Source of the DNA: Cellulosilyticum lentocellum DSM 5427
Lineage (GTDB): Bacteria > Bacillota > Clostridia > Lachnospirales > Cellulosilyticaceae
Reading direction: 5' to 3'
Length of the DNA stretch: 64,000 nucleotides
Assembly: GCF_000178835.2 (NCBI RefSeq)
Contig: NC_015275.1
Coordinates: 3,121,001 to 3,185,000 of the forward strand
In this document: positions 45,965 through 62,851 of the stretch, in pieces
How the letters are laid out: every line of letters begins with the position of its first letter
Numbering within the stretch: the first letter of the stretch is position 1
Notes under the pieces: model-generated
Told to the model about the DNA's origin: nothing
Database searches by the model: none
The model's input: only the letters and a program-made list of their open reading frames with translations
Program-made: the position numbers and the translations under genes

Positions 45965-48900
45965 TTATAGTTTAAACGAAGCTGAACTTCCTCTAGCCCC
46001 TGTAGTAATTTCAAGACCTACTGGGATTTGTTCTCGTAACTCTTTTACATGTGATATGATTCCTATTAAACGACCTGTATCTTGAATACTTAGTAAAGTT
46101 TTAATAGCTAGCTCTAGTGCCTCTTCATCTAAACTACCAAAACCTTCATCAATAAATAACGTATCTAGTGGCGTAGCTCCTGCTAATCTTTGAATCACTT
46201 CAGATAAGCCGAGGGCTAGCGCTAGTGCTGCCATAAAACTTTCACCACCTGATAAGGTTGTTACAGGCCTTGTCTCATTATTATAATAATCCTTAATGCC
46301 AATATCTAAACCTGCTTGTGCATTAGCACGAGATAAATCGTCACTACGGAATAATTCATAACGATTATGGGTCATCGGCCTTAATTTCTTATTAGCACTT
46401 CTTAAAACTTCCTCAAAAATGCTACTTTGAATATATCTTTCAAAAGAAAGTCCCTTTCTATTCTTTCCCTTCGCATAGCTACTAATTTTTTCAATAACAC
46501 TTTGTTTTTTTACTATGGTTTTAACCTCATCATAAAGATGAGTTAATGCTTGCTGAATCTTTAAATGCTTCATTTGATTATTTTTCACTTCATTAACCTT
46601 TAAACTTAAAGCTGTGCTTTGCTCCATCAATACTTGATGCTTATTGGTAACGCTCACTCTTTCTTCTTCTGAGAAATCTTTTGTTTTTTCTTGAAGCTCT
46701 TTACACTGACTTGTGAGTAAATTTCTTCTTTGTTTATACTCACCTAAATCAGCTTTAGCCGTTTCTAGATCTTCTGGTGTCATTTTGTAAATCTTAAAAT
46801 CTCCCATATCACTGAAACCAGCAACTTCTAAGGCATTTTCAAACTCAAGGCGCTTTTTAGCCCCTTGTTCTTTTAAAGTGACTGCTCGTTTCTGGTTTTC
46901 GAGCACTCTTGTACTTTGCTGTGCTTTTTCTGTACTTTGTCTTTCTTGCTGCTGCTTAAGTGTCTTAAATGCTGCTTCTTTAGCTGTATAAGCAGCTTTT
47001 AACTGCTCTAACATAGCATCTAAAGCCACCTTTTCTCTAAGCTCTTTTGGCACTTCTGTTTCAATACTCGTAATATAAGCTGTTACTTCACTTAAACCTT
47101 CTTTTTGTTCTGCAATATAAGTAGCTCCTTTTTCCTTTCGCTCAATAATCGTCTTTTTCTCTAGGCGATTGGCTTCTAAGGCTTTTTGCATCTGGACAAG
47201 TTCTCCTAATTTTGCTTCTAGGGTAGTTATTTCCTCCTTTAGTTTGTGTAAAACCTCTTCACTAATAGTCTCTTTACCTACTAAAGCCTCGTCATATGCT
47301 TGTAATCTCGCTTTAAGAAGCTTACATTCTTTCTCTAAAGCTGATTTAGTTTCTCTCAAACTGCCTAACTCTGTTTCTAACTCTTTAATTTCCTTCTCCA
47401 TTTTGTCCAAAGCTTCCTTCGTGATATGATCACTTGTCAAAACAGCTTTTTGTGGATGCTTTAAGGAACCACACACAGGGCAAGGTTCATTATCTTTTAA
47501 AGTTTCGGCTAATACCCCTGCTTGATTATTAAACCAGAGTTTAAAAGCTTCTCTATAATGCGTTTCATGTAGCTGATGTAGCTGCTCTTTTTGCTTAATG
47601 AGTTCATACTGTTTATCTAATTCTGAAAGCACTTTGGTAGCATGTGCTTCTTCTCTTACTCTTTCAGCTTTTTGCTTTAATATTTCTAACATCTCTTTTT
47701 GTAAGACCAGCTTCTCAGCTAATTCTTTTTGAAGGGTATCTTTTTGTTTAATGGTTAACTCTTTTTCTTCTATTTCTTTATCTAATAGAACTTCCTTTTC
47801 GAGTAGTTTTTTATAGGTGTCCTCTCCAATGCTAAGCGCTTTTTGCTTCTGCTCTCTTTCTTCGTATTTAGCAGCTAATTGTACTACTTTAGGTACATAG
47901 GTTTCTAAAATGCTATATTCCTTCTTTAGTTTTTCTACTTCTACAGGTAAGTTTTCCTGTTCTTTCAATTTCGTTTCACAAAGCTTTAATTTATCTTCTA
48001 TCTCTTTTAAAGAGGCTACTTGTACTTTTAAAGTCTCTTCACATGCCAAGTACTCTTTTTTAACTTCTAGCACAATGGTTTCTAGTGGGATAATAGGAAG
48101 TATTTTTTCTGCTTTTTCAATTTTAACTTCAAGCTGATTGTAGTGTTCTTTTTTAGCTATGAGGCCTGTTAACTCTGTTTCTAAACGGACTTGTTCCTGC
48201 TTTTCCTCATACTGTTTATTGACTTTAACTAACTGCTGTTGGCTCTCTTCTAATTGGGCCACAACTTTTTTTAGTTCTTGCTCTAGCTGCTCTTGTTCCT
48301 CTTTCTTCTCACTACAAATGCATTCTAAAATGTCACATACCTCTGGTGCATTATAAATGACCTTTGTACTCAAAAAATCTTTTAAGCGAACATCTTCTCC
48401 TGCTTCAATTTGACTTAATGTATTTTCATAAATTAACTGTTTTTCCTTCACTTGATCTTTAATATCCGCATATAGGATTTCTAAAGCTTTTTCTACATTC
48501 TGATAAATACCTGTTTCAAAAATATCTTGAAGAATTTGCTGCCTTTCTTTACTACTTACGGTGAGAAGCTCCCTAAACTTATTTTGAGCAATCATAATGA
48601 CCTGTCTAAACTGCCCAATGTTAAAATGCAAAAGCTCGTTGATCTTTTCGCCAACTTCATTATATTTGGCCGTTACTAACTTATAAGTATCTTCCTCTTT
48701 TTTATAAAGTTCAACCTCACTAGCCACCTTTACTAGCTTACCACTACTACCGCCACGTTTAGCCGCTCTTTCATATTGAGGTCTTCTCACAATACGATAC
48801 TCATCCTGACGCAGTTTAAAATAAAGTTCTACTTCTGTAATAGTATCTTCATCAGCAAACTTACTACGCATGGTTTCACCACTTCGTTCCCCTCCATTGG

Positions 48901-49066
48901 TTTCACCATATAATGCATAACAAATGGCATCTAAAATAGTAGTCTTCCCTCCACCTGTAGGACCATAAATTAAAAACATATTAGCATCTTCTAAACGTTC
49001 AAAGTCAATGATCTGTTCTCCTGCATAAGGCCCAAAAGCCGTCATTTTAAGTAATCTAGGCCTCAT
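45965..49066 (-). CDS. sbcC: SbcC, SMC-like exonuclease subunit
   Basis: The Rad50-like partner of SbcD. 1033 residues with an N-terminal Walker A in YGPTGGGKTTILDAICYALYG, two long coiled coils (about 180-520 and 545-820), a zinc hook CPVCG near 527-531, and the signature/Walker B LSGGESFMAALALALG and DTLFIDEGFGSLD. The SbcCD complex cleaves DNA hairpins and processes breaks. Its ATG overlaps the sbcD end by 11 bases, a coupling seen in most species. Confidence 0.95.
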   Translation of the reverse strand: MRPRLLKMTAFGPYAGEQIIDFERLEDANMFLIYGPTGGGKTTILDAICYALYGETNGGERSGETMRSKFADEDTITEVELYFKLRQDEYRIVRRPQYERAAKRGGSSGKLVKVASEVELYKKEEDTYKLVTAKYNEVGEKINELLHFNIGQFRQVIMIAQNKFRELLTVSSKERQQILQDIFETGIYQNVEKALEILYADIKDQVKEKQLIYENTLSQIEAGEDVRLKDFLSTKVIYNAPEVCDILECICSEKKEEQEQLEQELKKVVAQLEESQQQLVKVNKQYEEKQEQVRLETELTGLIAKKEHYNQLEVKIEKAEKILPIIPLETIVLEVKKEYLACEETLKVQVASLKEIEDKLKLCETKLKEQENLPVEVEKLKKEYSILETYVPKVVQLAAKYEEREQKQKALSIGEDTYKKLLEKEVLLDKEIEEKELTIKQKDTLQKELAEKLVLQKEMLEILKQKAERVREEAHATKVLSELDKQYELIKQKEQLHQLHETHYREAFKLWFNNQAGVLAETLKDNEPCPVCGSLKHPQKAVLTSDHITKEALDKMEKEIKELETELGSLRETKSALEKECKLLKARLQAYDEALVGKETISEEVLHKLKEEITTLEAKLGELVQMQKALEANRLEKKTIIERKEKGATYIAEQKEGLSEVTAYITSIETEVPKELREKVALDAMLEQLKAAYTAKEAAFKTLKQQQERQSTEKAQQSTRVLENQKRAVTLKEQGAKKRLEFENALEVAGFSDMGDFKIYKMTPEDLETAKADLGEYKQRRNLLTSQCKELQEKTKDFSEEERVSVTNKHQVLMEQSTALSLKVNEVKNNQMKHLKIQQALTHLYDEVKTIVKKQSVIEKISSYAKGKNRKGLSFERYIQSSIFEEVLRSANKKLRPMTHNRYELFRSDDLSRANAQAGLDIGIKDYYNNETRPVTTLSGGESFMAALALALGLSEVIQRLAGATPLDTLFIDEGFGSLDEEALELAIKTLLSIQDTGRLIGIISHVKELREQIPVGLEITTGARGSSASFKL

Positions 49067-50216
49067 ATTTTCCCTCCTCTATTTCCTGAACAATTTCCTT
49101 GATGTACTTCGTTTCTTCTTCATCAAATTCAGTTTCACCTATAAAATCTAAAAACTCCATAAATACCTCAGTAACTGTTTTTTCCTTAGTGGCCATAAAG
49201 TCCACTTGTTTTTGCTCTTCAACCGCTTCTCCTGAAGCTTCATCTTTTACCCATTCACTACCTAAAATATTAGGATAAATATGTCTGAGTGTTGCTGTTA
49301 CATCTGCTACAGGCACACCTTTAATACGAACAAATACATAGTCATCTTTATGAGCATCTAGGCTAGCTGATGCAATCAGCTCTTCTAAAAGTCCTGTTAA
49401 AACCCTTACATTACGTTTGGTTGCTAGTTCTTTTTCTTCAATAGCTACAAGCTTCTGTTTTTTTATCTCTAGAAGGACATAGCCTTTCTTTTGATTAGCT
49501 TCAGATACTGAATATTTAAGAAGTGAACCACTATAGCGAATGTTTTCTGCTCCCATAGCTTGTCTCTTATGAAGATGTCCTAAAGCTGTATACGTAAAAT
49601 TCTTAAAATGCTGAGCACTTACTAGCTCAGCTCCACCTACTACACTTAATCTTCTTTCTGAATCAGATACATCTCCGCCAGCTACAAAGGCATGTGCCAC
49701 TAATAAAGTAGGCACTTCTCTCTTCTCATTTTCAATAGCTTTTATTAAATAAGCCATAGCTTCATCATGCCTTTTAATGGTATCATCTTCTGCTATTTCT
49801 CTTACATGAGCTGGCTCAATATAGGGTATCATAAAAACATCAAGTTCTTCATCCTGGACCTTAACCGTAACCTTTTGATAACCTTTAGGACATTTCCCTA
49901 CTATGTAGAGATGCTGACTTTCAAATAACTTACTGCCAAAGTCGATACGCTCACCACTATCATGATTGCCAGAAATAATAATGGTACTTATTTTATACTC
50001 TAAGGTCACTTTGCTAATAAAATGATTAAAAAGCTCTACAGCTGCTTCTGTAGGAATACTTTTATCATAAATATCACCTGCAATCACTAGAAGGTCTACT
50101 TGATCTTCTCTAATCTTTTCTAATAAACGCTCTAACACATAAGCTTGATCCTCTATTAATGAATAGCCATGAAGGCTTCTGCCTAAATGCCAATCTGATG
50201 TATGCAAAATTTTCAT
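49056..50216 (-). CDS. sbcD: SbcD, Mre11-type nuclease subunit
   Basis: 386 residues with the phosphoesterase motifs ILHTSDWHLGRSLHG (D, H), VIAGDIYDKSIP (GD), IIISGNHDSGERI (GNHD) and VAHAFVAGG with ALGHLHKRQ (histidines). The N-terminus fits a family start. The C-terminal cap is acidic and ends VQEIEEGKYEA. Heads the sbcDC pair. Confidence 0.95.
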   Translation of the reverse strand: MKILHTSDWHLGRSLHGYSLIEDQAYVLERLLEKIREDQVDLLVIAGDIYDKSIPTEAAVELFNHFISKVTLEYKISTIIISGNHDSGERIDFGSKLFESQHLYIVGKCPKGYQKVTVKVQDEELDVFMIPYIEPAHVREIAEDDTIKRHDEAMAYLIKAIENEKREVPTLLVAHAFVAGGDVSDSERRLSVVGGAELVSAQHFKNFTYTALGHLHKRQAMGAENIRYSGSLLKYSVSEANQKKGYVLLEIKKQKLVAIEEKELATKRNVRVLTGLLEELIASASLDAHKDDYVFVRIKGVPVADVTATLRHIYPNILGSEWVKDEASGEAVEEQKQVDFMATKEKTVTEVFMEFLDFIGETEFDEEETKYIKEIVQEIEEGKYEA

Positions 50217-52393: not shown

Positions 52394-53476
52394 CTATTGT
52401 GATAATTTTACCTCTAACCATATGGTCGTGTATAGCTCAATTACATCTGAAGGGTCGTTGAACATCTCTAGATTCCCTAAAACAGAAGCATCAGGATAAG
52501 CGATCTCACTTTCTTGTATTTCCTCTGGTAGTAACGCTTTTGCTTCACTAATTGGTGTTGAGTAACCTATATATTCCGCATTTCTAGCTGCAATGTCTGG
52601 TCTGCATAGGAAATTAATATATTCATAAGCTTCTTCTTTATTGCTTGCACCTTTAGGAATAACGAAAGAATCCACGAAATAATTGGAACCTTCTTTAGGA
52701 ATAGCATAAGCTAAATCAGGATTTTCATCCATAGCCAGCATTGCATCTCCTGCCCAAGCAATCATCATAGCCGCCTCACCATTTACCATTTTACCTTTGC
52801 CTTCATCTCCTACATAAGCAAGTACTAATGGAAATTGCTCTATAAGTAGTTCTTTTGCCTCTGCTAGTTCTTGTGGATTTCTAGTGTTCATGGAGTATCC
52901 TAACTTCTTGAGTGCTACCATGATAGAATCTCGTTCACTATCATACATAAAAATTTGATCTTTATATTTCTCATTCCATAAAACATCCCAGCTATCTACT
53001 GGATCATCTACCATTTTTGTATTGTATAAAATACCTACTGTTCCCCACATATAAGGTACTGAGTATTTATTTTCTGGGTCGAAATCTAAGTTTTTAAATT
53101 CCGAATCTATTTTGTCATAGTTAGGAATTTTACTCATATCTATTTCTTCTAATCGTCCTTCATTAATCATTTTATCAATCATATAATCTGAAGGCACTAG
53201 AATATCATACTGTATATTGCCAGGTGCTACTGTTGCATACATTTCTTCATTATTAGCATACTCTGAATAAATCACTTTAATCCCTGTTTCTGCCGTAAAC
53301 TCAGCATTTAATTCTGGGGCAATGTAATCGCCTACATTATAAACAATGAGCTGACGCCCTTCTGTTTTTACAGGTGTATTTTCCTCAGCAGCAATATGAT
53401 CTGCAGTGCAGCCTGTTAAGCTTGCTCCTAGTAAACCCAGGGTACTTATTAAAGCAAGTATTTTTTGTATTCTCAT
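52394..53476 (-). CDS. potD: Spermidine/putrescine-binding lipoprotein
   Basis: Extracellular solute receptor of the polyamine ABC importer. The start at 53476 gives a lipoprotein signal MRIQKILALISTLGLLGASLTGC with GGGGGAAAG upstream; earlier codons lack these. The fold shows RQLIVYNVGDYIAPELNAEFTAETGIKV, YDILVPSDYMIDKMI, KYSVPYMWGTVGILYNT and AAMMIAWAGDAMLA, typical of PotD/PotF. About 360 residues. Last of potABCD, 34 bases from potC. Confidence 0.94.
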   Translation of the reverse strand: MRIQKILALISTLGLLGASLTGCTADHIAAEENTPVKTEGRQLIVYNVGDYIAPELNAEFTAETGIKVIYSEYANNEEMYATVAPGNIQYDILVPSDYMIDKMINEGRLEEIDMSKIPNYDKIDSEFKNLDFDPENKYSVPYMWGTVGILYNTKMVDDPVDSWDVLWNEKYKDQIFMYDSERDSIMVALKKLGYSMNTRNPQELAEAKELLIEQFPLVLAYVGDEGKGKMVNGEAAMMIAWAGDAMLAMDENPDLAYAIPKEGSNYFVDSFVIPKGASNKEEAYEYINFLCRPDIAARNAEYIGYSTPISEAKALLPEEIQESEIAYPDASVLGNLEMFNDPSDVIELYTTIWLEVKLSQ

Positions 53477-53510
53477 AAGCTTTCCCCCGTTCTTTGGTTT
53501 AAAATCCTTT

Positions 53511-54293
53511 TTATTCATACTGATCATCTTTTACTTTTTTATTCACACGGAGATTACTTATTAAAAGAATGATCATAATTGCTGTAAACATCAATGTTGA
53601 GATGGCATTAATGGTTGGATTAACGCCTTTACGAGCCATGGAATAGATTTTAATAGGAAGTGTATCCACTCCTGCTCCTTTATTAAAGAAACTTACAACG
53701 AAATCATCAAGTGAAAGGGTAAAAGCAATGAAAGCTCCTGCCACAACACCTGGTAAAATCTCTGGTAAAATCACTTTCTTAAATGCATAAAAAGGTGTAG
53801 CTCCTAAATCTAAAGCGGCTTCATAAAGGTTGTAATTCATCTGCTTAAGCTTTGGCATAATAGATAAAATCACATAAGGTACACTAAAGGTAATATGTGA
53901 AATAATAAGTGTTACAATACCAAATGGCATATGAATAAACGAAAATAACATCATTAGTGAAATACCAATAACGATATCAGGACTTAAAAGAGGTATATAA
54001 GTCACATTCATGACCCATTTCTTTTGCCAACCTCTCATACGATTAATGCCTATAGCAGCCAAAGTTCCAATTACAGTAGCAATCAGTGAGGATACTAGGG
54101 CTATCACAATAGTATTCATAAAAGCTTCTTGAATACTGGTATCAACTAGCATTTGCTTATACCAATCTAAAGTAAAGCCTCTCCATATAGGAAGCTTTGA
54201 ATCATTAAACGAAAAAATCATCAGTAGTGCAACAGGGGCATACATGATTACTAAAATGGCTACAAGATAAAAGCGCTTTAAAAATTTTATCAA
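53511..54293 (-). CDS. potC: Spermidine/putrescine ABC permease PotC
   Basis: 260 residues, six membrane spans. Family signature YEAALDLGATPFYAFKKVILPEILPGVVAGAFIAFTLSLDDFVVSFF (EAA loop). Overlaps potB by four bases. Confidence 0.94.
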   Translation of the reverse strand: MIKFLKRFYLVAILVIMYAPVALLMIFSFNDSKLPIWRGFTLDWYKQMLVDTSIQEAFMNTIVIALVSSLIATVIGTLAAIGINRMRGWQKKWVMNVTYIPLLSPDIVIGISLMMLFSFIHMPFGIVTLIISHITFSVPYVILSIMPKLKQMNYNLYEAALDLGATPFYAFKKVILPEILPGVVAGAFIAFTLSLDDFVVSFFNKGAGVDTLPIKIYSMARKGVNPTINAISTLMFTAIMIILLISNLRVNKKVKDDQYE

Positions 54294-55102
54294 AATAGTC
54301 CCCCTCCTTTATCAAACGCACCTTTTTTAGACATAAAGCCTAGAGTAATAAGGACTACTATCATGAGTAACATGGAAACAGCCGAACCAAAGCCCATATT
54401 ACCTGTACGTGTAAATTGTTCTTCTATGACATTACCAATAAGCATTACCTTACCACCACCTAAAAGTCTAGTAATAAGGAAAGTAGTAAGTGCTGGCATA
54501 AACACCATAATAATACCTGTTAATACCCCTGGCATACTTAATGGTAAAATAACTTTTCTAAAAGTAGTCATTTTATTAGCACCTAAGTCATAGGAAGCTT
54601 CTATTAAACTATGGTCAATTTTACAAAGTACATTGTAAATAGGTAGCACCATAAAAGGAAAGAAGTTATAAACCATACCAAAAATAACACCACCATTACC
54701 ATACAAAAACTTAACCTTAGAAAAGCCTAACACTTCAAGAAAACTATTGATAACACCATTATTTTCAAGCAGGTTTGCCCAAGCATAGGTTCTTAAAAGG
54801 GAATTCATCCACATTGGAAGAATGACCAATACTAAAATAATACTTTTGCCAGACATTTCTTTACTACTTAAAATCATGGCTAAAGGATAAGCTAAGACTA
54901 AGCATACCACTGTACAAATAAAAGCTAACTTAATAGACTTCCAAAAAGCTTCTAAGTAGGCAGGTTCCATAAACTGCTGATAGTTTGCCAGACTAAAACT
55001 TCCTGCTTTTTGAAAGCTATAATACACAATTAAAAGGAGTGGTACAATGATAAAAATAGCTGACCATATTAAATAAGGAAAAGCTAAAGACCTTCTATTC
55101 AT
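54290..55102 (-). CDS. potB: Spermidine/putrescine ABC permease PotB
   Basis: 270 residues, six spans. EAA loop EASYDLGANKMTTFRKVILPLSMPGVLTGIIMVF. Five bases downstream of potA. Partner of PotC in the channel. Confidence 0.94.
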   Translation of the reverse strand: MNRRSLAFPYLIWSAIFIIVPLLLIVYYSFQKAGSFSLANYQQFMEPAYLEAFWKSIKLAFICTVVCLVLAYPLAMILSSKEMSGKSIILVLVILPMWMNSLLRTYAWANLLENNGVINSFLEVLGFSKVKFLYGNGGVIFGMVYNFFPFMVLPIYNVLCKIDHSLIEASYDLGANKMTTFRKVILPLSMPGVLTGIIMVFMPALTTFLITRLLGGGKVMLIGNVIEEQFTRTGNMGFGSAVSMLLMIVVLITLGFMSKKGAFDKGGGLF

Positions 55103-55107
55103 CTCAT

Positions 55108-56169
55108 CTACCTCCTTTTCATAATATGGATTTCAGCAGGTGTAATAACCATCCCTACTTCTTCTCCTACCTGTGACATTGTTGTGGAATGAACTGTCCA
55201 TAAAAATCCCTTTGAACGAATAGACATTTCATAATGTACCCCTTTAAAGGTAACAGCTTCTACAACACCTGTTAACATCCCCTTGTCAGCTGATACAATT
55301 AGAATATCTTCTGGTCTTACAACTACATCAATGGGTTCATTTTCCGTAAAACCAAAGTCCACACATTCAAATTCTGTATCATGGAATTTTACTAAGTAAT
55401 CTTTTAACATAGTCCCTTGCAAAATATTACTTTCACCAATAAAATCTGCTACAAAGGCATTTTTAGGTTCATTATAAATATCAATAGGACTACCAATCTG
55501 TTGCACTTTACCATCTTTCATAACTGCAATTGTATCGGACATGCTTAAAGCTTCTTCTTGGTCATGAGTTACAAAAATAAAGGTAATACCTACTTTTTGC
55601 TGAATACGTTTAAGCTCCAATTGCATCCCTTTTCTAAGTTTTAAATCAAGGGCACCTAAAGGCTCATCTAAAAGAAGTACCTCTGGTTCGTTAACTAAGG
55701 CTCTTGCAATAGCAATACGTTGTTGTTGTCCACCACTTAATGAATCTACTGAACGCTTTTCATAACCTGCAAGATTAACTAATGCTAACATTTCTTTTAC
55801 TTTTTCTTTAATAACTTTCTTATCCATTTTCTTAATTTGAAGTCCAAAAGCAATGTTATCTTCTACATTCATATGTGGAAATAAAGCGTACTTTTGAAAA
55901 ACGGTATTAATTTTTCTTTTATAAGGTGGTAAATCTGCAATGTTTTTACCTTCAAAAAGGACTTCTCCATTTGTACATTCTTCAAAACCACCAATAATAC
56001 GAAGCAAGGTTGTTTTTCCACAACCACTAGGACCTAGTAAAGTCAAAAATTCATTGCGTCTTATATACATATTAATATCATCTAAAACTAAATTATCATC
56101 ATATTTCTTGGTAATATGCTTTAAATCAATAATATAATCTTTGGTAGCTAACTCTTCTGTCATTTCCAT
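55108..56169 (-). CDS. potA: Polyamine ABC importer ATPase PotA
   Basis: 353 residues. ABC domain with [11 protein letters not shown] (Walker A), [17 protein letters not shown] (signature), [12 protein letters not shown] (Walker B) and the H-loop FVTHDQEEA. The C-terminal TOBE domain is [14 protein letters not shown] onward. Follows the regulator gene by eight bases. Confidence 0.95.
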
Positions 56170-56177
56170 CTACTCCT

Positions 56178-56717
56178 TTAAAAACTTGGTGGCGTAGCAA
56201 CCCATAGAACGATAGCTTTGGTCTTCCCTGGATTGTGAAGATAATGGTCACTTGTTGGTCTAAAATAAAAGCTGTCACCTTTTTTCGCTTTAAACTTCTT
56301 GTTACCTAAGTGAACATATACATTACCTGCAATCACATAACCAAATTCTTCTCCATCATGAGGTGCTCCCACACTAGATTTTCCTCCTGGTTCAATATGT
56401 ATCAGGATGGGTTCCATATCATTTTTTTGTGCATTTGGGATAAGCCATGTAATCATATTATTATGATCTTTATCCTCTTTTTCAAAAACATCTTCTTTTG
56501 TGAAAACAATTTTTTCTTGACTGGATTCATTAAAGAAATCCTTTAGATTAGTGCCTAAACACTCTAATATATCAATGAGTGTGGCAATAGAAGGTGAAGT
56601 TAAACCTCTTTCTACTTGAGAAATGAAGCCTTTTGAAAGCTCACACCTATCTGCTAGTTCTTCTTGGGTTAAACCATTCTTCTTACGAAGCTGATTAATC
56701 TTAGCCCCAATATCCAT
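56178..56717 (-). CDS. XRE-cupin transcriptional regulator of the pot operon (PuuR-like)
   Basis: 179 residues. An N-terminal XRE helix-turn-helix (IGAKINQLRKKNGLTQEELADRC; LSKGFISQVERGLTSPSIATL) and a C-terminal cupin (GGKSSVGAPHDGEEFGYVIAGNVYVHLG, FYFRPTSDHYLHNPG). This is the PuuR-type architecture that senses polyamines. The chosen ATG has GAGGGGG ten bases up; an earlier start at 56789 runs through the promoter region. Autoregulation is suggested by paired AAAC-N5-GTTT sites upstream. Confidence 0.85.
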   Translation of the reverse strand: MDIGAKINQLRKKNGLTQEELADRCELSKGFISQVERGLTSPSIATLIDILECLGTNLKDFFNESSQEKIVFTKEDVFEKEDKDHNNMITWLIPNAQKNDMEPILIHIEPGGKSSVGAPHDGEEFGYVIAGNVYVHLGNKKFKAKKGDSFYFRPTSDHYLHNPGKTKAIVLWVATPPSF

Positions 56718-56756
56718 ATTATCTAGCCCCCTCTGTGTATTACAGTATATATAAAT

Positions 56757-56769
56757 AAACTTTTTGTTT
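56757..56769 (-). promoter_or_regulatory. Candidate operator AAAC-N5-GTTT, proximal
   Basis: TAAAC-TTTTT-GTTTA, 5-bp arms (56756-56770), about 40 bases before the regulator's ATG. Confidence 0.4.
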
Positions 56770-56852
56770 ACATCCATTAAACTTGCCATAGAAAATTATA
56801 CATATTTCTTCTAAATACGTCAATACAAAACCACAAAAAATTTATTCTTACC

Positions 56853-56936: not shown

Positions 56937-56976
56937 AAGAATAGAAGTACACCTCTAGTGATGCACTTCTATTCTT
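56937..56976 (-). terminator. Terminator of the export operon
   Basis: AAGAATAGAAGT/ACTTCTATTCTT, 12-bp stem, 16-base loop; TTTTGTG on the minus strand. Confidence 0.75.
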
Positions 56977-56989
56977 AAAATATATTGTA

Positions 56990-58060
56990 TTAAAAACTAT
57001 ATTCGCTCATTGTCCACGGTTTCTCAAACTGCATTTTTAAAATATTGTATTTATAAACTTCATTTAAATAATCTACTTGTTTGGCATCTAAAGCAACTTT
57101 TTGTGTCTCATAATCAAGTGTACTTATATAGCCTGCCTTGTATTTAATTTCTAATGCTTTCATCTCTTTTACACTATTTTTATACTCATTTGCTTTTGTG
57201 TTTATGCTATCTAGCTGTGCACTTAGTACTGTATATTGGGTTTCAATTAGTAATCTATACTTATCATAGCTAGTTTGTAGTTTTACCTTTGAATTTTCTA
57301 CATTTATTTTTTGTTCTAGGTAGTCAGAATATTTAGGCCCTGTTCCTCCAACACCTGATTTATAAATGTTTTCTTTAAAGTCGTCCTCACTCAAATTAAC
57401 CTTTTCATTTTCATATTTTAAAAGTTTGGTTGCCATCGCTGTAGCATAAGAATTAATACTTTGGTCTAACACAAAAGGCTCGTAAGTATTCTCTTCTTTT
57501 AAAATATAGTTATCAGTGTTTATGTTAGTAAGATTAAGAAAGCTCTTTTTTGCATCTCCTAAATTTTTCTCTGTCTGTTCTTTTTTTACCTTTGATTCCT
57601 CTAAACTCTGAACTGCCTGCTCATAAGTTAGCTCATCACAAAAGCCTTTTTCTTTCTTTATGGTAACTTGTTTTACTTGATTTTCATTTAAGTTAATTTG
57701 CTTTTTTAAAAGTTCAATATTCCTTTGCAATAAAACTATATTTTGATACTGTTCTGTAACCTCCTTAGTAATACGATCTTTTTGAAATTGTTTTTTTTGA
57801 TTTAATTCTTCTATAGCGATTTTTTTTGAACTATATTCTACAGAGCCTATATTCTCTATTGATTTCTTTTGCTCTGTATAAACTGCAGTATTTCTCGCAT
57901 ACTCTCCTAATGTCTCATCTTTACTAATTGCCATAGTTATGGCATAATCTAAATCCAATTCTTTTTTCTCTGTAACTGGTGCTGCTAGTACTGATGTTGT
58001 TATTAAAGAAGTCACCGACAAAAGTAACAGTGCTTTTTTTATTCCTTTATTTAGTTTCAT
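56990..58060 (-). CDS. TolC/OEP-like coiled-coil protein
   Basis: 356 residues with a signal peptide (ALLLLSVTSLITTSVLAAP). Long helices resemble outer-membrane efflux proteins: ITKEVTEQYQNIVLLQRNIELLKKQINLNENQ, GFCDELTYEQAVQSLEESKVKKEQTEKNL, and the repeat half QKINVENSKVKLQTSYDKYRLLI...KALEIKYKAGYISTLDYETQKV. The GYISTLDY/GFCDELTY motifs are the classic OEP ones. Last gene of the MacA-ABC operon. In a Gram-positive it cannot form an outer-membrane pore, so a wall-side or secreted role is likely. Confidence 0.78.
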   Translation of the reverse strand: MKLNKGIKKALLLLSVTSLITTSVLAAPVTEKKELDLDYAITMAISKDETLGEYARNTAVYTEQKKSIENIGSVEYSSKKIAIEELNQKKQFQKDRITKEVTEQYQNIVLLQRNIELLKKQINLNENQVKQVTIKKEKGFCDELTYEQAVQSLEESKVKKEQTEKNLGDAKKSFLNLTNINTDNYILKEENTYEPFVLDQSINSYATAMATKLLKYENEKVNLSEDDFKENIYKSGVGGTGPKYSDYLEQKINVENSKVKLQTSYDKYRLLIETQYTVLSAQLDSINTKANEYKNSVKEMKALEIKYKAGYISTLDYETQKVALDAKQVDYLNEVYKYNILKMQFEKPWTMSEYSF

Positions 58061-58185
58061 CCTCTTCCTCCTCTATTTCTATTCAAACGCTTTATAAACT
58101 TATAATGTTCTATCTATTTTTAATTATATATCATTATTCTGAATGTTTGATAACAGTTTTATTAAAATTACATTAAAGTCTTTGT

Positions 58186-59388
58186 TTATTCTTCCCTTAG
58201 TGCTTCAACAGGATCTAATTTAGCAGCTTTATAAGCTGGATAAACACCAAATATAATACCAATACTGCTCGAAGTACCTACTGAGAAAATAATCATCCCC
58301 GCTGTCAATTGAGCAGTTATTCCTATAGCTGATGCAAGTAACACTCCGCCAAAATAGCCTACTAAAAGACCTGTTATACCGCCTAACAAAGTCAACATAA
58401 GCGCCTCGATTAAAAATTGGGTTAAAATCTGACGATCGGTAGCCCCTAAAGCTTTTCTTATTCCAATTTCCCTTGTACGTTCTTTAACAGTTACCATCAT
58501 AATATTCATGATGCCAATACCACCTACCAAAAGTGAAACAGCCGCTACAATACTCGTAAATAAATTTAATTTGTCTAAAACATCATTATATGTATTAGTG
58601 GCTTCCATTACAGACATAACCATATAAATATCTTCTTTACCATGTCTTTTCTCAAGTAACTTTCTAATAGGGGTACTGTAATCTGAAGCTTCATAGTCCT
58701 CATTAATAATAACCATTGCTTCATAAGACTTGCCTTCACCTCCCTGTAAATATTTATCTGCTGTAGCAAATGGTAAATAGACAATAGGTGCAATCATTTC
58801 CTCAGGTGCTGCTGATGGATAATAACTTTTTGTAACACCAACAATTTCAAAGTTTTGTACTTCTCCACCAATATTCATATCAATGCTTTTTCCTAAAGCA
58901 TATTTAGGATCTTTGACATTGAACATGATTTTTGCAAAATTATCTTCTACTATGATTACATTACTTCTTAAAGTTTCGTCTTGCTCTAAAAACATCCTTC
59001 CATACTTAAGACTGATAGACTGTACCTTTTCATAGTCATGAGTAATGCCAAAAAGCATTAAGGTTTTTTCTTCCTTCTTATAATTCTTAGCTGTGCCTAT
59101 ATATTGTTCATGATAAGGTAAAACATCCATTACTTCCGGGATTTGACTAATCACATCAAAATCCTCTGGCGTTAACAAATTATCCTCAGAATAATCCATG
59201 GTCATAATTTGAATGGTTCCTTTTCCCACACTACTAAACTGACCATTAACATAGCCTTTTACACCTTCTCCTAGGCTTAAAATAATAATAACCGCACTAA
59301 TACCAATTAGCATGCCTAGCATTGTAAGGAAGGTTCTTAGTTTATTGCCTTTAAGCTGACTTAAGGCATTTTTTAGTGTTTCTCTCAT
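58186..59388 (-). CDS. MacB/FtsX-type ABC permease, second copy
   Basis: 400 residues with four membrane spans (near 20-40, 275-300, 325-350, 360-385). A large external MacB-like domain lies between the first two. Signature FTSIVAAVSLLVGGIGIMNIMMVTVKERTREIGIRKALGATDRQILTQF. Tandem paralogue of the upstream permease, 18 bases away. Ends AYKAAKLDPVEALREE. Confidence 0.92.
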   Translation of the reverse strand: MRETLKNALSQLKGNKLRTFLTMLGMLIGISAVIIILSLGEGVKGYVNGQFSSVGKGTIQIMTMDYSEDNLLTPEDFDVISQIPEVMDVLPYHEQYIGTAKNYKKEEKTLMLFGITHDYEKVQSISLKYGRMFLEQDETLRSNVIIVEDNFAKIMFNVKDPKYALGKSIDMNIGGEVQNFEIVGVTKSYYPSAAPEEMIAPIVYLPFATADKYLQGGEGKSYEAMVIINEDYEASDYSTPIRKLLEKRHGKEDIYMVMSVMEATNTYNDVLDKLNLFTSIVAAVSLLVGGIGIMNIMMVTVKERTREIGIRKALGATDRQILTQFLIEALMLTLLGGITGLLVGYFGGVLLASAIGITAQLTAGMIIFSVGTSSSIGIIFGVYPAYKAAKLDPVEALREE

Positions 59389-59406
59389 TTCTTATTCCTT
59401 CCTTTC

Positions 59407-60630
59407 TTAATCTGCTCTTAAGGCTTCTATAGGGTCTAGTTGCGCTGCTTGATAAGCAGGATATACGCCGAATACAAGGCCGATAGTCACCGAGGTTAGG
59501 GTTGCAAATAAAATCATTCCTAATGTAAACTCAGCCATAATGCCTAGTTGATTACCAATCATCATCGCACCTATATATCCTAATAACATCCCTAATATTC
59601 CTGCTATTAGTGTTACCATCAAGGCTTCGATTAGAAATTGTACCAGTACATCTTTATTAGAAGCTCCTAACGCCTTACGAATACCTATTTCTCTCGTTCG
59701 CTCTTTAACTGTAACAAGCATAATATTCATAATACCAACGCCACCTACTACAAGAGAAATACTCGCTATGGCACTAATAAATAAAGTAACAATATTCATG
59801 ACACTATCTACCATTTGCATAATTTGTACATAAGTTTGAATAGCATAACCATCTTTTAAATGATGTCTTTTATTAAGGATTTGTCCAATTCTTGTTGTTA
59901 CTTCACTTTGATCATAACCACCCTTTACAATACCTGCAATAGTTCTTACAGAACCACCTAAACCTAAAAGCTGATCCAGTTTGCTATAGGGTATGTAAAA
60001 AGTTTTTTGTGTAATCATACGGTCTAGTTCTTTTCTACTTAAATCCTTTGAACTATTAGTTTTATAAACACCTACTATTTGAAAACTAATGGGCTGCTTA
60101 TTAATAGTTATTTCAATCTGTTCTCCCACTACTCTCTCATAAGATTTTTCACCGTAAAGTGCTTTAGATACAACATCTGCAATCACCACTGAATTACTAT
60201 AAGCTTCTTCATCTTTATCATTTAGATTTCTACCAGCTAAAATATCTAGTGGTGAAATTTCATTGACATAGTCAGGTTCAATACCTGAAATATTGCACAG
60301 AAAACTCTCACCCTTTTGTGTGTAAAGATTTCCTCTACTATCATTTCCTCTCACAACACTCTCAATTTCCGGCAGTGATTTAATCAAATTAACATCTTCT
60401 GTATCAATCTTATATTCTGACTTTTCTTCTTTTGCGCTCACTTGAAACACACCTAAACCCATATCCATAAAGGAACTCTTAATATAAGTTTGAAAGCCTG
60501 TTCCTAATGCCAAAATCATAATAACAGCCCCTACACCAATAAACATACCTAACATTGTAAGGATCGTTCTCCCCTTATTTCCCATGAGTTGTTTAATTGC
60601 AGATTTAATACTTTCACCTAACATATTCAT
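59407..60630 (-). CDS. MacB/FtsX-type ABC permease, first copy
   Basis: 407 residues with the same four-span layout and an external domain of about 220 residues. Signature ISLVVGGVGIMNIMLVTVKERTREIGIRKALGASNKDVLVQF. Its start overlaps the ATPase stop by one base. The duplicated permeases probably form a heterodimer with the ATPase. Confidence 0.92.
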   Translation of the reverse strand: MNMLGESIKSAIKQLMGNKGRTILTMLGMFIGVGAVIMILALGTGFQTYIKSSFMDMGLGVFQVSAKEEKSEYKIDTEDVNLIKSLPEIESVVRGNDSRGNLYTQKGESFLCNISGIEPDYVNEISPLDILAGRNLNDKDEEAYSNSVVIADVVSKALYGEKSYERVVGEQIEITINKQPISFQIVGVYKTNSSKDLSRKELDRMITQKTFYIPYSKLDQLLGLGGSVRTIAGIVKGGYDQSEVTTRIGQILNKRHHLKDGYAIQTYVQIMQMVDSVMNIVTLFISAIASISLVVGGVGIMNIMLVTVKERTREIGIRKALGASNKDVLVQFLIEALMVTLIAGILGMLLGYIGAMMIGNQLGIMAEFTLGMILFATLTSVTIGLVFGVYPAYQAAQLDPIEALRAD

Positions 60631-61325
60631 TAGGATATTCCTCTCCTATTTTGTATAGGTGCATCATCAATAATGATGCCGTCTCTAAATACAACTCTTC
60701 TTTTAGTGAATTCTGCAATATCTGGTTCATGGGTAACCATAACAATCGTAACACCTTCATTATTTAAGCCTTGAAAAATATTCATTATTTCTACACTCGA
60801 TTTACTATCTAGGTTTCCTGTAGGTTCATCAGCTAAAATGATAGCTGGATTATTAACAAGGGCTCTGGCAATTGCTACCCTTTGTCTCTGCCCCCCTGAG
60901 ATTTCATTGGGCGTATGCTTAATACGATTCCCTAACCCCACTCTAATAAGTGCATCAACTGCACGTTCTCTTCTCTCTCTAGGCTTAATACCTGCATACA
61001 TCATAGGTAGTTCTACATTTTCAGTAATAGTAAGTTTAGGTAATAAATTAAAGGATTGAAAGACAAAGCCTATTTTTTGATTTCTAATTCTTGAGAAATC
61101 TTTATCCTTTGCTTCAGAAACATTTATCCCATCTAATATGTAAGTACCACTCGTAGCATGGTCAAGACAGCCTAGAATTTGCAAAAAGGTTGATTTACCT
61201 GAACCAGAAGCCCCCATGATAGATACGAACTCTTCTTTTTCTACCTTGAAGTCAATATCAAATAAAGCTTGGAGTTCTAGGCGACCATTTCTATAAATTT
61301 TATTCACTTTTTGAATATCTATCAT
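60630..61325 (-). CDS. MacB/LolD-type ABC ATPase
   Basis: 231 residues. GASGSGKSTFLQILGCLD (Walker A), NEISGGQRQRVAIARALV (signature), IILADEPTGNLD (Walker B) and MVTHEPDIAEF (H loop). A separate ATPase rather than fused to the permease as in E. coli MacB. Overlaps the adaptor by four bases. Confidence 0.94.
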   Translation of the reverse strand: MIDIQKVNKIYRNGRLELQALFDIDFKVEKEEFVSIMGASGSGKSTFLQILGCLDHATSGTYILDGINVSEAKDKDFSRIRNQKIGFVFQSFNLLPKLTITENVELPMMYAGIKPRERRERAVDALIRVGLGNRIKHTPNEISGGQRQRVAIARALVNNPAIILADEPTGNLDSKSSVEIMNIFQGLNNEGVTIVMVTHEPDIAEFTKRRVVFRDGIIIDDAPIQNRRGIS

Positions 61326-62761
61326 TGTTCATCACCTAACTTCTCATAAGACACTTTAGTTCCTTCTGCTAAGTAATCAGCTGGATTACTTACAACTAAT
61401 TCCCCTTCTTGTACCCCTTCGATTTCGGTATATAGACCATTACTTAAACCTTGCTTAACATCTTTTCTACTAATGATTCCATCTTCAGCCACTACATAAA
61501 CATAATAGTTTTTATCATCATCTTCCATAACTGCTAAAATAGGTGCTACACATACATCAGTTCTTGTATCAGTAATAATTTTAACATCTACAGAAAAACC
61601 TGGTTTAATTACTTCACCCGGCTGTGTTACTTCTACTTTAACTGGAAGTGAAACTGTTTCACCACTAGAACTTTGTTTGACATCTGCTACAGCTGCCACC
61701 TTAGCAACTTTACCTGCTACTTCAATGGTTTTAGAACCTGTATATTTAATAACTGCATCTAGACCAACTCTTAGGTCTGCTGCGTAATAAGGTGAAATGT
61801 CACAAGTTACTTCTAATTTGCTAGGATCTACAATCGTTAAAATTTTACTTCCTGCTGTTACAGGCATCCCCTCTTCTTCTGGTAAGTAAGTAATAACACC
61901 ATTTATAGGGGCTACTACACTTGTTGACGTATTTTGTAAATTATTTTTAGCGGTATAAATTTGACTTTCTAAGCTTTTAATTTGACCTTCAGCTGAAGCA
62001 ATTTGTTGCTTTTTATTACTATCTTCTACTTTATTATTTAATAAATCCAAATTGTACTGAGCTGTTTCAATTTGTAAGTCCATTTGTTTTAAACTTGATT
62101 CAAGACTAATAATAGCAGTTTTCATCTGATCAATATTCTGTTTTAAAGTTGTCACCTTATCTTTAGAATCATCTAAGTCTTTTTGTGATAAAGCCCCAGC
62201 TTCAAAAAGTTCCTCGTTCACTTTTAAATCTGTTTCAGCTTGTTTTAAATCTTTTTCTAAATTTGATAAGTCTACTTTTTTATTTGTTATACTTGTTTCT
62301 GTATCTTTTCTGTTGTTTTTTAATTGTGTCAAAGTAGCCTGTGCGCTTAAAATATCTCCTTTAGAAGCTGCACCAAGTAACTGATTTAAACTCTCTTTAG
62401 CTGCTACTAGCTGTGCTTCTAAAGCTTCTAGGTTTTTTTGACTTGAAAGTTCTGCTTCCTGATCTAATACTAAAATCACTTCTCCTTGCTTTACGGTATC
62501 GCCTACTTCTTTATTAATGGTAATAATTTTATTACTTGCATCAAGATAAACAGTTTGGCTATCAACTGCTTTTAATTTACCACTTGAAGAAATTTTTGCC
62601 TCTATATTATCTTTTTTAATTTTCTCAACTTGTACACGTGGTCCTTCTTTATAACCTCCGATTGTTTCTTCCACTTCTGGTTTATTCATACTTGCAATAA
62701 CACCCAATACAATCATAATACCCACTACACTAATAATGATGTACTTCTTTTTGCCTTTCAT
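61322..62761 (-). CDS. MacA-like periplasmic-adaptor (HlyD/RND) protein
   Basis: 479 residues. An N-terminal membrane anchor (YIIISVVGIMIVLGVIASM), a lipoyl half (GDTVKQGEVILVLDQE), a long helical hairpin of about 200 residues (SQKNLEALEAQLVAAKESLNQL..), the second lipoyl half (TSTSVVAPINGVITYLPEEEGMPV) and beta-barrel/MP domains. First gene of the five-gene operon with its own promoter. The long hairpin is what normally meets TolC. Confidence 0.9.
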   Translation of the reverse strand: MKGKKKYIIISVVGIMIVLGVIASMNKPEVEETIGGYKEGPRVQVEKIKKDNIEAKISSSGKLKAVDSQTVYLDASNKIITINKEVGDTVKQGEVILVLDQEAELSSQKNLEALEAQLVAAKESLNQLLGAASKGDILSAQATLTQLKNNRKDTETSITNKKVDLSNLEKDLKQAETDLKVNEELFEAGALSQKDLDDSKDKVTTLKQNIDQMKTAIISLESSLKQMDLQIETAQYNLDLLNNKVEDSNKKQQIASAEGQIKSLESQIYTAKNNLQNTSTSVVAPINGVITYLPEEEGMPVTAGSKILTIVDPSKLEVTCDISPYYAADLRVGLDAVIKYTGSKTIEVAGKVAKVAAVADVKQSSSGETVSLPVKVEVTQPGEVIKPGFSVDVKIITDTRTDVCVAPILAVMEDDDKNYYVYVVAEDGIISRKDVKQGLSNGLYTEIEGVQEGELVVSNPADYLAEGTKVSYEKLGDEQ

Positions 62762-62823: not shown

Positions 62824-62851
62824 ATTATAAGTGACAATCCTTAATTTTCAA
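62824..62851 (-). promoter_or_regulatory. Sigma-A promoter of the export operon
   Basis: Minus strand TTGAAA, 16-base spacer, TATAAT. The rest of the 62762-63076 gap shows nothing else. Confidence 0.6.

Follow-up and report, generated by a model that had tools for sequence, protein, structure and literature searches.

A TolC-like protein predicted to lack its beta-barrel in a MacAB-like pump operon of Cellulosilyticum lentocellum

Our analysis of a 64,000-nucleotide window of the Cellulosilyticum lentocellum DSM 5427 genome (NC_015275.1, positions 3,121,001 to 3,185,000 of the forward strand) revealed a minus-strand operon at window positions 56990-62761 that probably encodes an ABC-driven efflux pump of MacAB-TolC design, adapted to a cell that has no outer membrane. 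In this pump, the hairpins of the adaptor and the tunnel of a barrel-less TolC-like protein (OEP) would together form a conduit through the cell wall. Further, barrel loss was general among the OEPs that we sampled, and it tracked BamA, the outer-membrane marker used in the comparison. The initial annotation had proposed an operon of an adaptor, an ATPase, two permeases and a TolC/OEP-like protein, and this was borne out by five closely packed open reading frames, at the positions it had given, and by their Pfam matches. From 62761 down to 56990, the genes are as follows.

61322..62761, minus strand: adaptor (membrane fusion protein), 479 aa, with an N-terminal transmembrane helix, lipoyl/beta domains and an alpha-hairpin at residues 102-276 (Pfam, RND_mfp, model)
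60630..61325, minus strand: ABC ATPase, 231 aa, MacB/LolD/DarD-like (ABC_tran; 4-bp overlap with the adaptor gene)
59407..60630, minus strand: permease 2, 407 aa (MacB_PCD and FtsX; 40% identical to permease 1)
58186..59388, minus strand: permease 1, 400 aa (MacB_PCD and FtsX)
56990..58060, minus strand: barrel-less TolC-like protein (OEP), 356 aa (PF02321, alignment, AlphaFold model, structure search)

A TolC fold predicted to lack its barrel

The window OEP matched PF02321 over two stretches (57.2 bits against a cut-off of 22, E 2.6e-15). It scored 12.8 bits against the type I secretion TolC model TIGR01844, short of the cut-off of 225.15; phmmer against PDB sequences returned no match, and the only PHROGs match was a weak one (E 0.0028), to a family whose function is unknown. 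Its AlphaFold model (12-row alignment; pLDDT 78, pTM 0.69) has the helix order of the familiar TolC topology, with strands solely at residues 33-35 and 185-187 and two tunnel helices of 65 residues each (73-137 and 244-308). Foldseek placed TolC and its relatives at the top (9tg4, E 2e-8, TMq 0.65), and VIA-align superposed the model on TolC with a Z of 21.8 (rmsd 4.3, 314 residues), the best row outside the OEP family reaching 9.5. The predicted fold is that of TolC, and not the unrelated fold that the initial annotation had named as a way for its reading to fail. The parts of the protein on which the argument turns are these.

57983..58060, minus strand: OEP signal peptide, residues about 1-26, ending ...SVLA before A, no lipobox (sequence reading; lipobox pattern scan)
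57845..57856, minus strand: 4-residue turn (69-72) at the place of the first TolC beta-hairpin (alignment, model)
57635..57649, minus strand: tunnel tip 1, residues 138-142, with G139 (alignment, model)
57332..57358, minus strand: 9-residue loop (235-243) at the place of the second TolC beta-hairpin (alignment, model; pLDDT about 47-58)
57122..57136, minus strand: tunnel tip 2, residues 309-313, with G310 (alignment, model)

An outer-membrane barrel of this type takes four beta-strands from each protomer, and these the window OEP lacks. Both beta-hairpin deletions are also visible in the alignment with long OEPs, and the spacing between the two tip glycines, both near-invariant, is 171 in the window protein compared with 191-276 in the long ones. 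The window OEP is thus best described as a predicted TolC fold without its barrel, in which the tunnel and the adaptor-docking tips appear to be retained and the loss of the barrel is predicted to be complete.

To extend this to other genomes, we used tip-glycine spacing as the measure in OEP rows of at least 320 aa. The set of 119 OEPs, which left out loci L001-L032, came to 117 rows after two reading frames shorter than 320 aa had been dropped, and represents 115 distinct genes (L133 equals L150, and L134 equals L151); the OEPs of L052 and L171 were missed, longer antisense reading frames having been kept there. The distribution is empty between 175 and 191, separating short from long OEPs. 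The proportions are not estimates for the phylum, because the regions were hand-chosen, mostly from the best profile matches: in BamA-negative genomes, 58 of 60 OEPs were short (150-175; the 58 from 52 genomes), BamA-positive genomes held 19 distinct long OEPs (17 genomes) and 15 short ones (10 genomes; one short OEP is cut by a contig end), and in named records, whose BamA status was not part of the comparison, 17 of 21 OEPs were long and four short. The two long OEPs from BamA-negative genomes sit on short contigs of draft genomes: that of L051 (G106, 78% complete) has ACR_tran and gyrase A genes as neighbours, and that of L156 belongs to G377, a draft of about 450 contigs. Contamination is a possible source of both. 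By spacing, the repeat-2 hairpin is absent from all 58 short OEPs of BamA-negative genomes, some of which have large repeat-1 insertions. As a separate observation, the barrel-less OEPs at L042:5686-7332, L044:10361-11833 and L189:6771-8234 carry insertions of about 100 residues or longer, in the first top loop only.

The expectation that the host has no outer membrane was supported. The source genome (4.71 Mb, one contig, 99.95% complete) gave no match to Omp85 (PF01103) or to LpxC, Spo0A is present, and none of the 295 genomes of the order had Omp85 over the cut-off, with one match under it. PF02321 finds one OEP gene in the source genome. Tallies of genomes by this profile are upper bounds, because it also matches some adaptors (e.g., at locus L185); read in this way, the fifth gene is not rare, with matches in 198 of the 295 genomes of the order (188 over the cut-off), and in a phylum sample of 249 genomes, 62 of them with Omp85 over the cut-off, PF02321 matched in 61 of the 62 and in 125 of the 187 others.

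The core of this finding was already known. A 2022 study in PLoS Biol (PMC8809574), as far as its available text goes, reports a wide occurrence of TolC-like proteins among monoderm Firmicutes, with no BAM and in many cases within a pump operon, and the window is a further example. The proteins described there share with it a duplicated OEP repeat, a signal peptide, a pump operon, S-layer-type proteins in the genome and the absence of BAM; in the source genome, the S-layer-type proteins are SLH-domain matches, which point to a putative S-layer. For the modelled Clostridioides difficile protein, the same text mentions an omission within the barrel domain, and it still describes a hydrophilic “barrel domain” in the S-layer. 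Beyond what that text contains, our results indicate that both hairpins are missing in the window OEP and, by spacing, in 58 of the 60 OEPs of BamA-negative genomes, that a docking motif is tied to OEP presence, and that BamA-positive relatives carry paired short and long OEPs. If there is no barrel, there would be nothing for BAM to assemble, which answers a question left open in that paper, namely how TolC-like proteins of this kind are assembled in the absence of BAM.

The adaptor tip and the proposed wall conduit

The adaptor matched HlyD_3 and HlyD_D23 in Pfam and RND_mfp at 145.1 bits (cut-off 94.9), and it has the transmembrane helix, lipoyl domain and alpha-hairpin of periplasmic adaptors. 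In its model (pLDDT 84.8), the hairpin comprises helices 102-130, 134-187, 193-244 and 248-276, with breaks at 131-133 and 245-247. According to the part of PMC3391258 available, the RLS motif, RxxxLxxxxxxS, at the tip of an adaptor hairpin is the interface with the TolC tip. A variant of it occupies the tip of the window adaptor.

62186..62221, minus strand: adaptor hairpin-tip motif VxxxLxxxxxxS, residues 181-192 (the RLS motif with V for R)

Specifically, residues L185 and S192 are kept, V181 stands at the R position, and the tip scored 34.8 with our docking matrix, compared with at most 6.9 in 30 shuffles. The matrix was trained on diderm adaptor tips only, with a score of at least 8 as the threshold; adaptors were counted as linked when a same-strand OEP lay within 8 kb, and “monoderm”, for named records, was taken from record titles and general knowledge. 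Of the monoderm adaptors, 28 of the 36 with a linked OEP had the motif, as did 4 of the 24 without one (Mann-Whitney p 1.6e-5, Fisher 4e-6, with no correction for kinship). By these sequence scores, the putative docking motif follows OEP presence.

The remaining genes supply the engine. MacB_PCD (E 6e-32 and 2e-31 for the two permeases), FtsX and a dedicated ATPase occur together, as in MacB-type (type VII) ABC transporters, while the three separate chains scored 210.7, 197.7 and 254.6 bits against the MacB equivalog NF007826, under its cut-off of 966. The window shares with Escherichia coli MacAB-TolC the adaptor, the MacB-type permease, the ATPase and the TolC fold, but differs in that ATPase and permease are separate, two permeases are present, the barrel and the RLS arginine are missing, and the TolC-like gene lies inside the operon.

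MacB works by mechanotransmission, and in the pump that we propose, the ATPase would drive a heterodimer of the two 40%-identical MacB-type permeases in the same manner. The adaptor ring would stand on the permease, its long hairpins carrying the TolC-docking tip, and three copies of the exported OEP would form a helical tunnel whose tips meet those of the adaptor, in the way that TolC docks. The tunnel would end in loops where TolC has its beta-barrel, requiring neither outer membrane nor BAM, and the conduit would release its cargo, presumably toxic compounds, inside the peptidoglycan or S-layer or on its far side. An adaptor arm of about 85 residues, taken at 1.5 A each, measures about 13 nm and an OEP tunnel helix about 10 nm; with an adaptor base of 5-6 nm, the predicted stack would be near 28 nm, which lies within the range of Gram-positive wall thickness. 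In the same family, arm length varies with a near-constant OEP, although arm lengths in relatives come from a crude pattern and some starts are misplaced (e.g., L036): about 137 residues in L041 (OEP 353 aa) and about 192 in L043 (OEP 381 aa). We also observed that the adaptor hairpins of L043:7614-10061 (815 aa) and L041:5984-7858 (624 aa) owe their extra length to heptad-like repeats flanking the tip on either side, and that the L043 adaptor has an acidic tail of ATEDE-type repeats. The wall-spanning conduit of helical hairpins that the initial annotation held conceivable hence stands in part: the retained tunnel, the docking tips and the long adaptor hairpin fit it, while the spanning of the wall is a step that we infer.

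Several points weigh against such a pump. Structure prediction covered single chains, the trimer and its docking being putative; the pTM of the adaptor model is low (0.48), as is the confidence of the second top loop of the OEP (pLDDT about 47-58, compared with 65-75 for the first). The window adaptor has V instead of the RLS arginine. Eight of the 36 linked adaptors fell under the threshold and four of the 24 unlinked ones passed it. The linked adaptors may also simply be closer kin to one another. A second matrix, built from the window adaptor together with eight relatives, finds a related tip in six of the eight failing adaptors, and among the unlinked but motif-positive cases, L040 has an OEP about 2 kb away on the other strand and locus L185 ends near a contig end. 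Finally, no cargo gene lies near the window operon, and the OEP gene starts 125 bp after the permease gene, so separate transcription is possible.

Among the alternatives, the strongest, which we nevertheless consider unlikely, is that the OEP serves as a channel of the S-layer, with its top seated in the S-layer lattice as TolC is in the outer membrane, a model put forward in PMC8809574, where, in the text available, all 12 examples have S-layer proteins or putative S-layer genes. At least 23 SLH matches occur in the source genome (of 34 candidates, 23 were scored), an SLH-fused OEP exists (L003), the C. difficile protein is shed with S-layer proteins, as cited in PMC8809574, and across the order SLH occurs in 189 of 198 PF02321-positive and 54 of 97 PF02321-negative genomes (Fisher 2.8e-16). 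This association is confounded by relatedness, however, because the 20 listed of the 52 SLH-negative genomes, as well as the nine of the 52 that are OEP-positive, represent two families. SLH domains are no proof of an S-layer, a protein without barrel strands has no obvious part to embed, and G279 has a weak pair of OEP-like genes (22.7 bits against 22; L200) beside an RND-like fragment, so read by eye, with no SLH or CW_binding_2 match. The nine OEP-positive, SLH-negative genomes, G279 among them, at first resembled counter-examples to the S-layer model; judged by frame length (1151-1494 aa), the matches in G042, G053, G233 and G276 are probably coiled-coil cross-matches. Also among the nine, L197 (G028) and L198 (G083) encode divergent OEP-like proteins of 684-720 aa, and G205 and G209 have frames of similar length (714 and 692 aa). 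The proteins at L197:1078-3240 and L198:424-2478 show an “FRWSPLL” stretch at the first barrel-hairpin position and a long C-terminal domain.

Less probable still is that the OEP serves as a soluble helper, whether a foldase-like cage, an adaptor scaffold or a wall-binding spacer, in an otherwise bipartite pump. MacAB-like pumps lacking a nearby OEP do occur, as seen in 22 adaptors of named monoderms whose retrieved loci show no OEP on the same strand within 8 kb, and the available parts of PMC4446572 and PMC5985334 consider what Gram-positive adaptors may do besides bridging. The Bacillus subtilis YknXYZ and pneumococcal pumps are, like the window, Gram-positive MacAB-like systems with an adaptor, but differ in that the accessible text of PMC5985334 describes no TolC-like partner for them. 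Against a helper stand the full TolC tunnel topology with its near-invariant tip glycines and the association of the docking motif with OEP presence. That the gene is a decaying relic of an outer membrane present in an ancestor, or was transferred and serves no function, is very improbable: family members are only 17-27% identical to the window OEP, but its frame is intact, the operon is conserved, and PF02321 matches extend to as many as 125 of the 187 genomes without BamA in the phylum sample. Although OEP genes usually serve as markers of an outer membrane, an unrecognised outer membrane with an ordinary pump is hardly credible, given no Omp85 or LpxC match in a nearly complete genome and an OEP without barrel strands.

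Transcription, surroundings and relatives of the operon

From adaptor to OEP, the genes are spaced by -4, -1, +18 and +125 bp, a consensus scan found no terminator-like site between them on the minus strand, and the OEP gene has a strong ribosome-binding sequence, GAGGAAGAGG, ahead of its ATG. Two candidate signals flank the operon.

62824..62851, minus strand: promoter-like site TTGAAA-16-TATAAT, sigma-70-like consensus match 11/12, about 60 bp upstream of the adaptor gene
56937..56976, minus strand: terminator-like hairpin 3' of the OEP gene, 17-bp stem, 6-nt loop, TTTT (read from the sequence and folded)

Promoter-like matches are barely above chance (37 sites found in the region compared with 31 expected), and the hairpin, absent from the consensus-scan list, was spotted by reading the sequence. 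The layout argues for one transcript that includes the OEP gene, so that the other outcome feared for the initial reading, an OEP outside the transcript, did not materialise, as judged from gene layout with its 125-bp gap. The same five-gene order occurs in two genomes of the same family (L035, L036), with the OEP gene 12 bp after the permease gene or overlapping it, and in other BamA-negative cases where the OEP adjoins a same-strand permease, adaptor or RND-sized gene, 25 of 30 gaps are shorter than 30 bp or are overlaps.

Regulator genes stand beside the pumps of relatives and point to inducible efflux. TetR genes lie upstream of the adaptor in L035, L036 and L041, a TetR-like gene occurs in L043 (TetR_C_19 over the cut-off, TetR_N under), and L039 and L040 have response-regulator genes close to the OEP, accompanied in L040 by a histidine kinase. 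No TetR- or response-regulator-type gene adjoins the window operon, whose neighbours are, upstream, a pullulanase fragment and, downstream, an HTH-cupin gene and further ABC genes; from a reading of the sequence, 52394-56789 appears to encode the HTH-cupin regulator followed by a polyamine (Pot-type) ABC transporter. Elsewhere in the window, 45965-50216 holds overlapping sbcC and sbcD genes, for which the best NCBIfam models are staphylococcal, with scores under the cut-offs of those models. Scanning the window with Rfam and for tRNAs gave no match.

Other barrel-less OEPs carry N-terminal fusions: SLH domains in L003:613-2307, and a Cu_amine_oxidN1 domain in L173, L194, L047 and L048. In the surface proteome of the Gram-positive Desulfotomaculum reducens, extracts contained one PF02321 protein and two HlyD-family proteins, according to the available part of PMC4137172. 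RND-type pumps of BamA-negative genomes (L039 with ACR_tran; RND-sized genes in, e.g., L159-L162 and L165) share with the window the barrel-less OEP and the docking-tip adaptor but have an RND instead of an ABC engine, the RND label denoting a reading frame of 950-1200 aa, except in L039 and L051 (ACR_tran by Pfam). By the crude pattern, adaptor arms in RND-type loci are 35-42 residues long (L159-L162, L165) and 60-74 in several others, compared with 85 in the window.

Paired short and long OEPs

Of the 19 regions taken from BamA-positive genomes of the same phylum, 12 (from 10 genomes) encode a short OEP and a long one in the same gene cluster. This proportion is not a rate, because several regions were picked since both OEPs were already visible in the profile search.

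BamA-positive paired loci: L137-L141, L143-L145, L149, L153-L155

The same pairing occurs in four named records, from Atribacteria (L053), Aerophobetes (L057), Candidatus Frackibacter (Halanaerobiales; L117) and an uncultured bacterium (L130). Thirteen of the 16 pairs overlap or lie at most 50 bp apart (-4 bp in L053, L139, L140, L141, L149, L154 and L155), and in L130, L137 and L138 other genes lie between the two. We found no description of such pairs in the literature searched, in which coverage of subscription papers was limited; a figure legend in the available part of PMC8809574 shows one operon with two TolC-like proteins.

A single origin of the barrel-less class was considered. A 112-row tree built from 220 helical columns had low resolution and required 12 changes between short and long. 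A reduced tree of 89 rows, for which 28 of the 117 rows were dropped (the two exceptions, the cut row, duplicates, long branches and near-identical rows), needs four, and one clade was not rejected (p-AU 0.223). Given these results, one origin and several losses are both compatible with the data. An “[FY]TP” in the second top loop was dropped as a signature of common descent, being found in 8 of 15 BamA-positive short OEPs, 4 of 58 BamA-negative short ones and 0 of 4 short ones in named records.

One tentative explanation for the pairs, possible but doubtful in our estimation, is that the barrel-less TolC is an older module rather than a mere relic of outer-membrane loss, stacking between adaptor and TolC as an extension of the tunnel. 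Its six top hairpin loops would imitate the tips of the adaptor hexamer, while its bottom would be a TolC tip; the barrel-bearing partner would then have been dropped with the outer membrane and the extender kept as a wall conduit. Regardless of how the class arose, what looked like a pump with an outer-membrane part in a Gram-positive bacterium becomes a testable wall conduit, and the adaptor tip motif offers a sequence test for which Gram-positive adaptors have a TolC-like partner. The paired short and long OEPs, in turn, bear on how the envelope changed when Firmicutes lost their outer membrane.

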